The position numbers and the translations under genes were made by a program. Positions 1-34,730 of a stretch of 34,730 nucleotides of DNA are shown here, one piece after another. Location: the IMG/VR virus record IMGVR_UViG_3300036406_000072, positions 1-34,730 of that record; one strand, written 5' to 3'. Below the pieces are notes generated by a model. That model was not told the origin of the DNA and made no database searches. It saw only the letters and a list, made by a program, of their open reading frames with translations. This DNA is from a virus. Within the stretch, counting starts at the first letter, position 1, and each line of letters begins with the position of its first letter.

Positions 1-147
1 TTGCAAGACAGGCGCTTCTACTCCCTGTGCGGCAGCCAGTGGGAAGGCCCACTGTGGGATCAGTATGAGAACAAGCCCAAGTTTGAGGTCAACAAGATCA
101 TGCTGGCGGTCATTCGCATCGTCAACGAATACCGCAACAACCGCATC
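1..147. repeat. Left copy of 147-bp end redundancy
   Basis: These bases recur at 34584-34730 with an offset of 34,583. Only three positions differ: 1 (T versus C), 9 (C versus T) and 21 (C versus T). The redundancy lies inside the portal gene. It is best read as the overlap of a circular or circularly permuted assembly, not as a true terminal repeat. Confidence 0.93.
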
Positions 148-4801: not shown

Positions 4802-4807
4802 ACCAAG

Positions 4808-4839
4808 ACAGGCCAGCAGAGATGTTGGCCTGTTTTTTT
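4808..4839 (+). terminator. Rho-independent terminator after the coat block
   Basis: ACAGGCCA (4808-4815) pairs perfectly with TGGCCTGT (4826-4833) around a 10-nt loop and runs into a T-tract ending at 4839. It follows the stop of the decoration-like gene by 7 nt. The next gene starts 15 nt after it with no obvious new promoter, so it probably attenuates transcription into the tail genes instead of ending it. Confidence 0.85.
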
Positions 4840-4853
4840 AACTGGAGAACGAT

Positions 4854-5024
4854 ATGCCAATGACCAAAGGTTACTCTCAGAAATCCATCGGCAAGAATAT
4901 TGCGATGGAAATGAAATCGGGCAAGCCACAAAAGCAAGCTGTTGCAATGGCACTCAGCACGGCAGCCAAGGCAGCAAAAGCCGCAGGCAAGCCAAGCAAA
5001 GCTCCGATGAAGAAGATGAAATGA
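4854..5024 (+). CDS. Small basic Lys/Ala-rich protein, DUF6496-like
   Basis: The 56-residue protein starts with 'MPMTKGYSQKSIGKNI' and ends in a Lys/Ala-rich tail ('KKMK'). The pattern SQKSIGKNI...MK.GKP.KQAVAMAL is one I associate with DUF6496, a small protein common in phages and some bacteria with no known function. A GGAG site at 4844-4847 precedes the ATG. Its stop overlaps the next start by four bases (ATGA, 5021-5024). It is very basic, so nucleic-acid binding is possible but unproven. Confidence 0.7.
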   Translation: MPMTKGYSQKSIGKNIAMEMKSGKPQKQAVAMALSTAAKAAKAAGKPSKAPMKKMK

Positions 5025-30183: not shown

Positions 30184-30363
30184 ATGAAAACGCAAGAGGC
30201 AATCGACTACTACGGCAGCACCAAAAAGCTGGCTGATGCATTGGGCATTTGGCCGCAGGTGATCTACACCTGGGGCGAGACTCCACCAATGGGCAGGCAG
30301 TATGAGCTGGAGGTCAAGACCGAAGGGACACTGAGGGCAGATCGGGAGCCAGTTAATGGCTGA
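30184..30363 (+). CDS. cro: Cro-type repressor, P22 Cro family
   Basis: The protein has 59 residues from ATG 30184, with AAGGA 6 nt upstream; an ATG three bases earlier is possible. The sequence 'YYGSTKKLADALGIWPQVIYTWGETPP' (9-35) is a helix-turn-helix, and the overall pattern is that of the P22 Cro family (PF14549). Cro proteins bind operators and turn down early or CI promoters. It sits just right of the operator dyad and overlaps the primase gene by 8 bases. No CI partner exists in the window, so it may only throttle the early promoters. Confidence 0.8.
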   Translation: MKTQEAIDYYGSTKKLADALGIWPQVIYTWGETPPMGRQYELEVKTEGTLRADREPVNG

Positions 30364-32371
30364 CCTTTCAAAAGTCCTTGGCGGCCCTTGGGCACCACCA
30401 CCAGAAAAGCTGGTCGCACCACCAGAGGTGCAACTCATTGATGCAATGCGTGCGGCAGGCCTCGAGCCACCGAGCGAAATCCTGATGGATGGCAAGATTC
30501 ACAGGTTCCGATCAGGCACCAAAGGCGCACCAGGCCATGGCGACAAGCCAGGCTGGTATCTGGTCTTCGGTGATGGCATTCCAGCAGGGCGCTTTGGCTG
30601 CTGGCGTTCTGGCATGGAGGTGACCTGGCGAGCTGATGTAGGACGCAAGCTCACGCAGACGGAGGAAATGGCCCACGCCAGACGCATGGCAGAGGCCAAG
30701 GCGCTGCGCGACGCTGAACTGGAGCGCAAGCACCAAGTGGCCAGCGAGACAGTCGAGAAAATCTGGACAGGTGCCCAAGGAGCCAGCCCAGAGCATCCAT
30801 ACCTGCAGCGCAAAGGCATTGGCGTGCATGGCGCACGGATTACAGGAGATGGTAGGCTGGTGCTTCCACTCTACGACCAAGACGGAACGCTGGCCACGCT
30901 GCAGTATATTGACCACGACGGCGGCAAGTTGTACCACCCAGGTGGCCAAACTGGAGGAAAGTTCTGGATGGTAGGCTCACTGGATGAGCCTGGCGCACTG
31001 TTTGTGGCCGAGGGTTTTGCCACAGCAGCCACCATTCACGAGACCACCAACAGGCCGGTGGTGGTGGCATACAGCGCCAGCAACCTCGTGCCGGTAACTG
31101 GCATCATGCGCGAGATGTATGGCGCAACTCAGGACATTGTGATCGTGGCAGATCATGACAAGTCTGGAGTTGGGCAGCGGTATGCAGAACAGGCCTCGGC
31201 CAAATTTGGAGCGAGGATGGTCATGCCGCCAATCGAGGGAGACGCCAACGATTATGCCCAAGCAGGCCACGACTTGGCCAGCCTTCTGCTCCCACCAAAG
31301 GACGACTGGCTCATCCCAGCAGATGACTTCTCAGCCCAGCCAGCACCAATCTCCTGGCTTGTTAAGCGTTGGCTGCAGTCCCAGGCGCTCATCATGGTTC
31401 ACGGCCCATCGGGCGGCGGCAAGACATTCGTCGTGTTGGACTGGTGCTTGCGCATGGCCAGCGGCATCGAAGACTGGGCAGGCCAGAAGGTTCGGCCAGG
31501 CAATGTGGTCTACCTGGCAGGAGAAGGCCACCACGGCCTGCGTGGGCGCGTTGCAGCCTGGAAACACTACCACCAGGCTGGTCACCTGGCCATGTGGTTG
31601 TCCAAGGACGGCTGCGATCTCAACACCGCAACCGGTTACATCAAAGTGGTCGAGCAGGTCAGAGCGTTGCCAGAAAACCCAGCCGTGATCGTGGTTGATA
31701 CCCTGCACAGGTTCTTGGCCGGTGATGAGAATAGTGCCCAGGACGCCAAGACCATGCTGGATGCCTGCAACAGCCTGATGAATGAGTTTAAGTGCAGCGT
31801 GATCCTGGTTCACCACACCGGTGTGGCCGAGGAAGCCCAGCACAGGGCCAGGGGATCAAGCGCCTGGCGAGGCGCTCTGGACATCGAGATCAGCATCGTT
31901 CCAGGCAAGGACGACCAGCCCATGCAGATCGTGCAGCGCAAGTCCAAGGATGCCGAGATGGCCCAGACGGTCTTTGTTGAGCTGCAGCAGGTGACCATCC
32001 CAGGCTGGTATGACGAGGACAACCAGCCTGTGACCTCGGCAATCATCGTCCAGTCGCAAGCCCCAACATCAGCAAAGAAGGACGGCAAGATCGACAGCCA
32101 TCGCAAGACCTTTGAGAACGCCTGGTGGGCATCTGGTGCCGAGGAGCGCAACGGCCAGCCATACCTCAGCAGGTCGGCCATGCTGGACTACCTGATCCAG
32201 AAAATGGATGTCAGCGAGACCTCAGCCAAGCAGTACCTCAAGCCAAGCGTGCCAGGAAAACCAATCGCAGACCTGCTGACAGCCGAGATCATCGAGGCCT
32301 TTGAGCATGGCTGGCTGGTGGTCAATGAGACTCATGCAAGTTCCATGCTCATTCGCAAGTCGGAGAGATGA
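30356..32371 (+). CDS. Primase-helicase (Toprim plus RecA-like helicase)
   Basis: The protein has 671 residues, with ATG 30356 inside the end of cro. The N-terminal half carries a Toprim domain: 'FVAEGFATAATI' (Glu219) and 'IVIVADHDKSG' (Asp266, Asp268). The C-terminal half is a RepA/AAA_25-type hexameric helicase: Walker A 'GPSGGGKT' (350-357), Walker B 'AVIVVDTLHR' (443-452) and 'ILVHHTG'. It resembles the primase-helicase of many phages and plasmids. Such proteins load at the origin and make primers. The putative origin follows directly. An N-terminal zinc motif is not obvious, so DNA primer synthesis is inferred from the domain set. Confidence 0.88.
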   Translation: MADLSKVLGGPWAPPPEKLVAPPEVQLIDAMRAAGLEPPSEILMDGKIHRFRSGTKGAPGHGDKPGWYLVFGDGIPAGRFGCWRSGMEVTWRADVGRKLTQTEEMAHARRMAEAKALRDAELERKHQVASETVEKIWTGAQGASPEHPYLQRKGIGVHGARITGDGRLVLPLYDQDGTLATLQYIDHDGGKLYHPGGQTGGKFWMVGSLDEPGALFVAEGFATAATIHETTNRPVVVAYSASNLVPVTGIMREMYGATQDIVIVADHDKSGVGQRYAEQASAKFGARMVMPPIEGDANDYAQAGHDLASLLLPPKDDWLIPADDFSAQPAPISWLVKRWLQSQALIMVHGPSGGGKTFVVLDWCLRMASGIEDWAGQKVRPGNVVYLAGEGHHGLRGRVAAWKHYHQAGHLAMWLSKDGCDLNTATGYIKVVEQVRALPENPAVIVVDTLHRFLAGDENSAQDAKTMLDACNSLMNEFKCSVILVHHTGVAEEAQHRARGSSAWRGALDIEISIVPGKDDQPMQIVQRKSKDAEMAQTVFVELQQVTIPGWYDEDNQPVTSAIIVQSQAPTSAKKDGKIDSHRKTFENAWWASGAEERNGQPYLSRSAMLDYLIQKMDVSETSAKQYLKPSVPGKPIADLLTAEIIEAFEHGWLVVNETHASSMLIRKSER

Positions 32372-32377
32372 TTATGG

Positions 32378-32576
32378 TTATCCACAGACTTATCCACAAT
32401 CATGGAAGGGTAACAGGTAACTATGACGTAAAAAAACGTAATCAGTTACCTGGGCAAAGGCTGCGTTTAGGGTAACGTAACGTAATCCCCCCCTTTAGGG
32501 GGGGTTACCAGTTACCTAACGCTGCGGCCAATTCCATAACCAAGACCACATAAAAAGTGTTGAAAAGTTATCCACA
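32378..32576. other. Putative origin of replication (DnaA boxes and GGTAAC elements)
   Basis: The gap between the primase-helicase and next gene is noncoding (226 bp). It holds three perfect DnaA boxes TTATCCACA at 32378-32386, 32390-32398 and 32568-32576. GGTAAC occurs at 32409-32414, 32416-32421 and 32471-32476, and its complement GTTACC at 32445-32450, 32504-32509 and 32511-32516. CAGGTAACT (32414-32422) and AGTTACCTG (32444-32452) are a perfect inverted repeat. A short A-rich run lies at 32430-32436. This layout fits a DnaA-dependent origin with phage-encoded iteron-like sites. No experiment or search backs it. Confidence 0.7.
32487..32504. repeat. Perfect C7/G7 hairpin in the origin region
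   Basis: Seven C (32487-32493), TTTA (32494-32497) and seven G (32498-32504) form an all-G:C stem. No T-tract follows, so it is not a classic terminator. It is flanked by GGTAAC-type repeats. A single-strand initiation structure or protein site is possible. Confidence 0.75.
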
Positions 32577-32597
32577 GGAAAGTAAGCAAGCACTAAC

Positions 32598-34478: not shown

Positions 34479-34730
34479 ATGGCCAGAATCTCAAACGACC
34501 AACGGCTCTCGAATCTGCACAGCGAAGCCCTGCGCCAGTTCAATGACATCCAGACTGCGCTGCGGGATGAGCGCCTGCAGTGCCTGCAAGATAGGCGCTT
34601 CTATTCCCTGTGCGGCAGCCAGTGGGAAGGCCCACTGTGGGATCAGTATGAGAACAAGCCCAAGTTTGAGGTCAACAAGATCATGCTGGCGGTCATTCGC
34701 ATCGTCAACGAATACCGCAACAACCGCATC
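34479..34730 (+). CDS. Portal protein, 5' part (cut by the window end)
   Basis: The ATG at 34479 starts 84 codons of the P22-like portal and runs into the window edge. The first 35 codons (34479-34583; 'MARISNDQRLSNLHSEAL...ERLQC') precede the overlap with base 1; the rest duplicates 1-147 in the same frame. A GAGGA site lies a few bases upstream. Joined with 1-1956, it gives a complete 686-residue portal gene. Confidence 0.92.
   Translation, partial: MARISNDQRLSNLHSEALRQFNDIQTALRDERLQCLQDRRFYSLCGSQWEGPLWDQYENKPKFEVNKIMLAVIRIVNEYRNNRI
34584..34730. repeat. Right copy of 147-bp end redundancy
   Basis: Identical to 1-147 except at positions corresponding to 1, 9 and 21. All three changes are silent in the portal frame (TTG/CTG Leu, GAC/GAT Asp, TAC/TAT Tyr). 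Confidence 0.93.

Follow-up and report, generated by a model that had tools for sequence, protein, structure and literature searches.

We propose that the 226-bp gap at positions 32372-32597 of a 34,730-nt viral sequence (IMG/VR record IMGVR_UViG_3300036406_000072, the whole of which is called the window here) is very probably a replication origin, a reading drawn from its repeats and from their pattern of change among relatives. We also hold it highly likely that this origin is read by the primase-helicase whose gene immediately precedes it, and that the protein's C-terminal winged helix and the repeats, or iterons, behave as a matched pair whose specificity can be switched. This would locate a likely origin in phages of a widespread, mostly uncultured group, and name a candidate domain for reading it. 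About 20 matched protein-DNA pairs found in relatives make up a natural series, and in one comparison the last 72 residues of the proteins differ at three positions and the origin is rewritten. Such a series makes testable how initiator and origin change specificity jointly when a mismatch should be lethal, and it is unusually good material for the study of origin-specificity change. The protein itself joins an RSF1010-type helicase to a primase and a proposed origin-binding domain in a single polypeptide.

Organization of the interval

The interval begins directly after the gene for a 671-aa primase-helicase (30356-32371) and is followed by a 60-aa ORF and then by TerS and TerL, with the start of TerS lying 180 bp downstream. 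Its G+C content is 43%, against 56% in the window. It holds three exact copies of the DnaA box TTATCCACA, all on the + strand, and no further copy without mismatch occurs in the whole 34.7-kb window. Six of the window's 15 copies of GGTAAC/GTTACC are packed into 108 bp of the gap, a multiplicity of short-motif copies such as iteron origins have. In 2000 dinucleotide shuffles of the gap the six hexamers were never reached, and at least one DnaA box appeared in four; when the whole window was shuffled 100 times, three boxes never fell inside 200 bp. A sequence-only reading of the window had reported the three boxes and the six hexamers, and these are borne out at their exact positions and far above the shuffled level. 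Both inverted repeats that it described are confirmed as well, a perfect one of 9 bp (32414-32422/32444-32452) and a pair of 13 bp at 92% (32409-32421/32504-32516). Its remark that this is the only sizeable noncoding block is plausible: one other gap was checked, at 4802-5020, and contains a terminator-like stem with a T-run as well as, at about 4854, a lysine-rich ORF of 56 codons, which falls below the 60-aa cut-off of the ORF listing.

The same reading had called the phage P22-type. The P22-like head genes (portal, scaffold, coat and head closure) bear this out, as does the Sf6-like TerS, but the replication module is not of the P22 gp18/gp12 type. The reading had also offered cumulative GC skew as a check. 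The skew turns at about 30.0 kb and does not single out the site, and because this turn coincides with the flip in gene orientation it is uninformative as a locator of the origin. Direct comparison with named phages at the DNA level gave only short DnaA-box matches. The ends of the window (1-147 and 34584-34730) share 147 bp with three mismatches, and the window is plausibly a circular assembly; the mismatches lie at the outer end of the repeat, and the overlap is therefore inexact.

Table 1. Features of the interval and of the adjoining primase-helicase gene, in window coordinates.
Feature	Position	Strand	Basis or remark
Primase-helicase gene, 671 aa	30356..32371	+	Pfam, PDB profile, AlphaFold
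Winged-helix domain, codons 570-671, proposed iteron reader	32063..32368	+	AlphaFold; class-specific columns
Codon 626, Gln, helix alpha3; proposed specificity residue for iteron third base	32231..32233	+	Column association, 8/8 switches
Codons 632-633, Val-Pro, loop after alpha3; proposed second specificity position	32249..32254	+	Column association
DnaA box 1, TTATCCACA	32378..32386	+	Exact match; tandem pair retained in the window's group
DnaA box 2, TTATCCACA	32390..32398	+	Exact match; spacing 11 or 12 bp in relatives
Iteron 1, GGTAAC	32409..32414	+	Motif match
Iteron 2, GGTAAC	32416..32421	+	Motif match
A-tract CGTAAAAAAACG, between inverted iterons	32427..32438	.	Near-invariant in aligned relatives
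Iteron 3 (GTTACC on +)	32445..32450	-	Motif match
GGGCAAA-type element, between the two halves	32453..32459	+	Conserved alignment columns in relatives
Long hairpin: outer, iteron and variable apical stems	32461..32524	.	Fold z and covariation
Iteron 4, GGTAAC, followed by GTAAC and GTAAT	32471..32476	+	Motif match
Hairpin apex CTTTAG	32493..32498	.	CTATAG, CTTAAG, CTTAG and similar in relatives
Iteron 5 (GTTACC on +)	32504..32509	-	Motif match
Iteron 6 (GTTACC on +)	32511..32516	-	Motif match
DnaA box 3, TTATCCACA	32568..32576	+	Exact match; next gene starts just after

The primase-helicase and its C-terminal domain

Pfam assigns Toprim_3 (E 8e-13) and AAA_25 (E 1e-36) to the 671-aa protein, and a profile built from 81 relatives matched a single PDB entry, RSF1010 RepA (1g8y, E 1.7e-6, residues 323-502). 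AlphaFold models the full-length protein with a mean pLDDT of 83.9 and its last 102 residues alone with a pLDDT of 91 and a pTM of 0.82. The elements of this C-terminal model (H6-23, E32-36, H37-46, H52-59, H67-73, E77-80, E83-86, H89-101) follow the order H-E-H-H-H-E-E-H, which is that of a winged helix. Helix alpha3 comprises residues 621-628 of the protein and contains residue 626, with residues 632-633 in the loop that follows it. Against the PDB the domain finds only generic winged helices, weakly (E ~0.05), and no close solved relative; among viral models, a Prim_Pol protein with the same winged-helix domain is the one strong match, and a comparison with plasmids gave no match. A search of genomes for prophages returned a single relative, at 70%; it lies on a MAG contig of 4.1 kb whose host assignment is unreliable.

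Exchange of the hexamer among relatives

Scans with the primase-helicase protein returned about 390 loci, 231 of them distinct and with both a complete C-terminus and sufficient downstream sequence. Among the closest 80 loci one layout of the interval is mostly kept, with two DnaA boxes, inverted iterons flanking ACGNAAAAAAACG, the GGGCAAA element, an iteron set within the hairpin, and a DnaA box. Among relatives the hexamer is swapped in every copy simultaneously while this layout stays. The types include GGTAAC, GGGAAC/GGAAC, CCCCCT, TGACCC, GGTACA, GGTTCA and GGGACA, and a table of hexamer against recognition helix holds about 20 of them. Among named phages, GGGACA occurs in Salicola phage CGphi29, GGTACA in Idiomarinaceae phage 1N2-2, and GGTTCA in Alteromonas phages XX1924 and PB15; in XX1924, PB15 and 1N2-2 the interval still lies behind the primase, with different genes downstream.

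About one quarter of the distinct relatives have another C-terminus (SRRNLIDGK type and others). These relatives carry a small ORF or other sequence downstream, without iterons, and their origin must therefore lie elsewhere or be different. In L242, L317, L313, L253, L319 and similar loci the iteron interval is replaced by a small ORF, often MNKKLTQLKAKLRAAQAELAIRTRT....

The DnaA boxes behave differently from the iterons. Perfect boxes number three in 45 and two in 13 of the 61 close relatives, and the tandem pair is spaced by 11 or 12 bp. The upstream pair is missing in the CCCCCT, GGTACA, GGTTCA and similar classes, and is inverted in part of the TGACCC class. Clustered consensus boxes, here three perfect ones, are what a DnaA-dependent origin would have, but constancy of the boxes across the origin family, which such an origin would also have, is not seen. 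Since they are kept in the window's own group and are absent, inverted or reduced elsewhere, we regard them as an accessory, lineage-specific addition, most simply a means of using host DnaA. They are not universal, being absent or reduced in most other classes. The sequence-only reading had held that relatives keeping the flanking genes without boxes or repeats would tell against an origin. The repeats are found to persist despite different downstream genes, and its proposal of a compact origin combining host DnaA boxes with phage-specific iterons stands as the best reading.

In L045, L053, L039 and L046 the hairpin is followed on its 3' side by TTATCCACA and then by a second inverted repeat, AAACCCTTTAG...AAAGGGTTTAGAAGGAG, which precedes a gene whose product starts MGKMYAGN and may be a regulatory hairpin.

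A hairpin conserved in pairing

The right (3') half of the interval is one long hairpin, with a fold z of -4.8 as DNA and -5.4 as RNA for the 132-bp core. In 36 aligned relatives, 96.7% of cells are paired and 11 of the 23 pairs have changed on both sides, giving a covariation score of 0.353, against 0.01-0.08 for slid structures. Two iteron pairs change from T-A to G-C along with the class switch and, because they follow it, are by themselves no proof of structure; pairs outside the iterons also covary. At the apex, the six pairs beside the core CT-(0-3 A/T)-AG are about 95% Watson-Crick over 55 distinct apices and use all four pair types. Pairing is conserved at the apex, and sequence is not. 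A structure-conserved, sequence-variable stem-loop 3' of a prim-helicase-winged-helix gene, as in the pRN1/BIP-1 type of origin, is thereby found here.

It might be supposed that the winged helix binds the repeats as an operator and controls downstream late-gene transcription, with no role in the start of replication. The interval does lie just upstream of the late genes TerS and TerL, and winged helices are often transcription regulators. However, no sigma-70-like promoter is found on the + strand of the interval, the genes downstream are variable, DnaA boxes flank the interval, and the hairpin stem is kept by pairing rather than by sequence. Moreover, the proposed reader forms one polypeptide with a primase and a ring helicase, and stays so joined even when the primase type changes. 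We judge an operator unlikely and favor an origin.

The strength of the stem covariation, together with the fold z of the RNA form, could also suggest that the hairpin acts in a transcript, as a terminator, a regulator or a primer RNA, and that the repeats are simply its stem. This appears quite unlikely to us. Rfam offers no family (the best score, 20.8 bits, is at chance level, the gathering score being 55), and no T-run follows the stem on its 3' side. In the apical stem G-T and A-C mismatches are equally rare, which indicates no strand preference. A functional RNA would also leave unexplained both the tracking of the hexamer by the winged helix and the switching of iteron copies that lie outside the hairpin.

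Residues that track the hexamer

The two best-sampled classes, GGTAAC (38 loci) and GGGAAC (35 loci), were compared column by column along the primase-helicase. Only two of the 671 columns, 626 and 633, separate the classes perfectly, and 632 comes third. Within this close group, column 626 is Q in all GGTAAC loci and V, once T, in GGGAAC loci, and column 633 is P, Q or I in the former and T, N, S, V or K in the latter. On a tree built from residues 1-590, which excludes the winged-helix domain, the hexamer class changes 12 times, and residue 626 tracks it in all eight independent supported pairs (p = 0.008); the comparison columns 617, 568, 671 and 659 do so in about 0-3 of those pairs. Wherever column 626 is resolved, Q occurs 33 times with T as the third base of the hexamer and never with G. 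Asn at this position goes with both T and G; the 626 rule is therefore local to the close group, and a one-residue code for all classes was rejected.

The neighboring genes do not behave in this way. A Cro-like regulator gene (30184-30363) precedes the primase gene. It is not associated with class, its best column reaching 0.32, and the ORF downstream is up to 98% identical across hexamer classes, so that neither is the reader. The Cro-like neighbor was rejected as a candidate also on the ground that non-homologous versions of it adjoin near-identical iterons; the presence of dissimilar small regulators at this site beside such iterons marks it as a separately exchanged module.

The end of the gene adjoins the origin, these phages are clearly mosaic, and the class labels are scattered on the tree. 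The association at 626 and 633 might accordingly be incidental, arising where recombination moves the end of the gene and the neighboring origin as one segment; we regard this as very unlikely. Codons 634-671 lie nearer the origin and have a mean class association of 0.01-0.13, against 1.0 for codon 626, and because they are barely associated linkage is not the cause. Two loci, L008 and L009, illustrate the point: over codons 600-671 they differ in amino acid only by Q626V, S632A and P633T, so that the protein between 633 and the origin is the same, with a few synonymous changes. Their iterons are rewritten, with hardly any change in the flanking DnaA boxes or in the gene downstream. The pairing of V with G recurs independently in a distant lineage, where L378 has V with GGAACA.

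A motif-matched change in the cognate initiator is expected of an iteron origin, and it is seen here at 626 and 633 and in eight of eight switches. On this comparative evidence the iterons are most likely read by the winged helix at the C-terminus of the neighboring primase-helicase, and with no link nearer the origin the protein is most likely its own initiator.

A cos or pac site for packaging, recognized by the small terminase whose gene lies downstream, was rejected as exceedingly improbable: TerS is close by in the window, and repeats and hairpins are known at such sites, but the interval stays with the primase and not with the downstream genes, as in XX1924, PB15 and 1N2-2, and the hexamer class tracks the primase-helicase helix across classes in which the next ORF is nearly identical.

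A possible sequence of events

If the interval is an origin of this kind, the winged helix would bind the GGTAAC hexamers, both in the inverted sets beside the A-tract and in the arms of the hairpin, as the covariation suggests. The bound subunits might then deliver the RSF1010-RepA-like ring helicase to the DNA, and in the window's subgroup host DnaA on the flanking boxes could aid in opening the duplex. The hairpin would form next, by extrusion as a cruciform or within the exposed strand, and could mark the site of helicase loading or of Toprim priming. A switch of specificity would minimally involve 626 and 632-633, together with the rewriting of every iteron copy.

Relation to known systems

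Precedents can be named for the steps of this scheme. By mechanism, the closest systems are SaPI Rep, Cch2, P4 alpha, pRN1 ORF904 and RSF1010. SaPI Rep and SCCmec Cch2 are self-loading initiator helicases whose C-terminal domain binds iterons directly 3' of their own gene, the iteron of Cch2 being the 5-nt AAGTG (PMC7581432). The phage system would share with them a C-terminal origin-binding domain, as proposed here from sequence, and has its iterons directly 3' of the gene. In place of their DUF927 or Primase_Cterm (D5) domains, however, Pfam finds AAA_25 and Toprim_3; the phage protein joins a helicase of RecA fold, like RSF1010 RepA, to a Toprim primase, and its interval has in addition DnaA boxes and a hairpin that covaries.

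In P4 alpha, a single polypeptide carries primase (Toprim-type), helicase and origin-binding domains and acts at an iteron origin (PMC4234260). The phage protein is like it, going by description, in uniting primase, helicase and proposed origin-binding domain and in the use of iterons. The helicase of P4 alpha belongs to another family, and its iteron has another sequence.

In pRN1 ORF904 and phage BIP-1, a prim-helicase with a C-terminal winged helix is followed directly 3' of its gene by an origin stem-loop conserved in structure and not in sequence (PMC4234260). Those proteins have an SF3 helicase and an archaeo-eukaryotic primase, whereas the phage protein has an AAA_25/RepA-like helicase and a Toprim domain, and their stem-loop comes without iterons, whereas the phage interval has both. 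RSF1010 (IncQ) proceeds from iterons to a ring helicase and then to priming at the hairpins ssiA and ssiB, which its RepA exposes (PMC4234260). The phage helicase domain is RepA-like (1g8y), with a sequence relation that covers the helicase core, but RSF1010 divides the work among three separate proteins, RepC, RepA and RepB', where the phage has a single fusion that includes Toprim and winged helix; the primase types also differ, being Toprim in the phage and RepB' in RSF1010.

The PLE satellite offers a precedent for matched exchange, since its initiator RepA has a DNA-binding domain that covaries with the iteron origin, the two being exchanged as one module, with cognate pairing borne out by replication tests (PMC8263062). 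There, two replicon types are found in the satellite and the domain is an N-terminal RepA_N, whereas the phages present about 20 hexamer types and single-residue resolution. The origins of P22 gp18/gp12 and lambda O/P have a separate origin-binding protein whose own gene contains the iterons; in the window the iterons come after a fused primase-helicase gene and not inside it. We did not find this combination of features, or this number of specificities, in the literature searched, in which subscription papers are thinly represented.

Portability of the module

We would tentatively extend this picture, as a possibility that we do not favor outright, to a portable module of winged helix, matched iterons and CT-(A/T)-AG hairpin that exists in some 20 mutually exclusive specificities, may be switched by very few residues of a recognition helix, and may have moved between Toprim and Prim-Pol proteins, its diversity being maintained by conflict between co-infecting phages or parasites that exploit or attack one another's origins. 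Phage MW202867 (MW202867.1, L388:1875-3900) bears on the matter of movement. Its protein comprises Prim-Pol, PriCT_1 and AAA_25; the RepA-like helicase and the winged helix are fused to Prim-Pol, not to Toprim, and the winged helix is the same domain, at 46.6% identity. Directly 3' of its gene are GGGACA repeats, inverted DnaA boxes and the hairpin ACACACC-TATA-GGGTGTGT, which is of the CTATAG type. That winged helix, iterons and hairpin all recur in a Prim-Pol phage implies that the module is portable across primase types, and the sharing of the module by Prim-Pol and Toprim proteins argues against a hairpin read by the Toprim domain alone.
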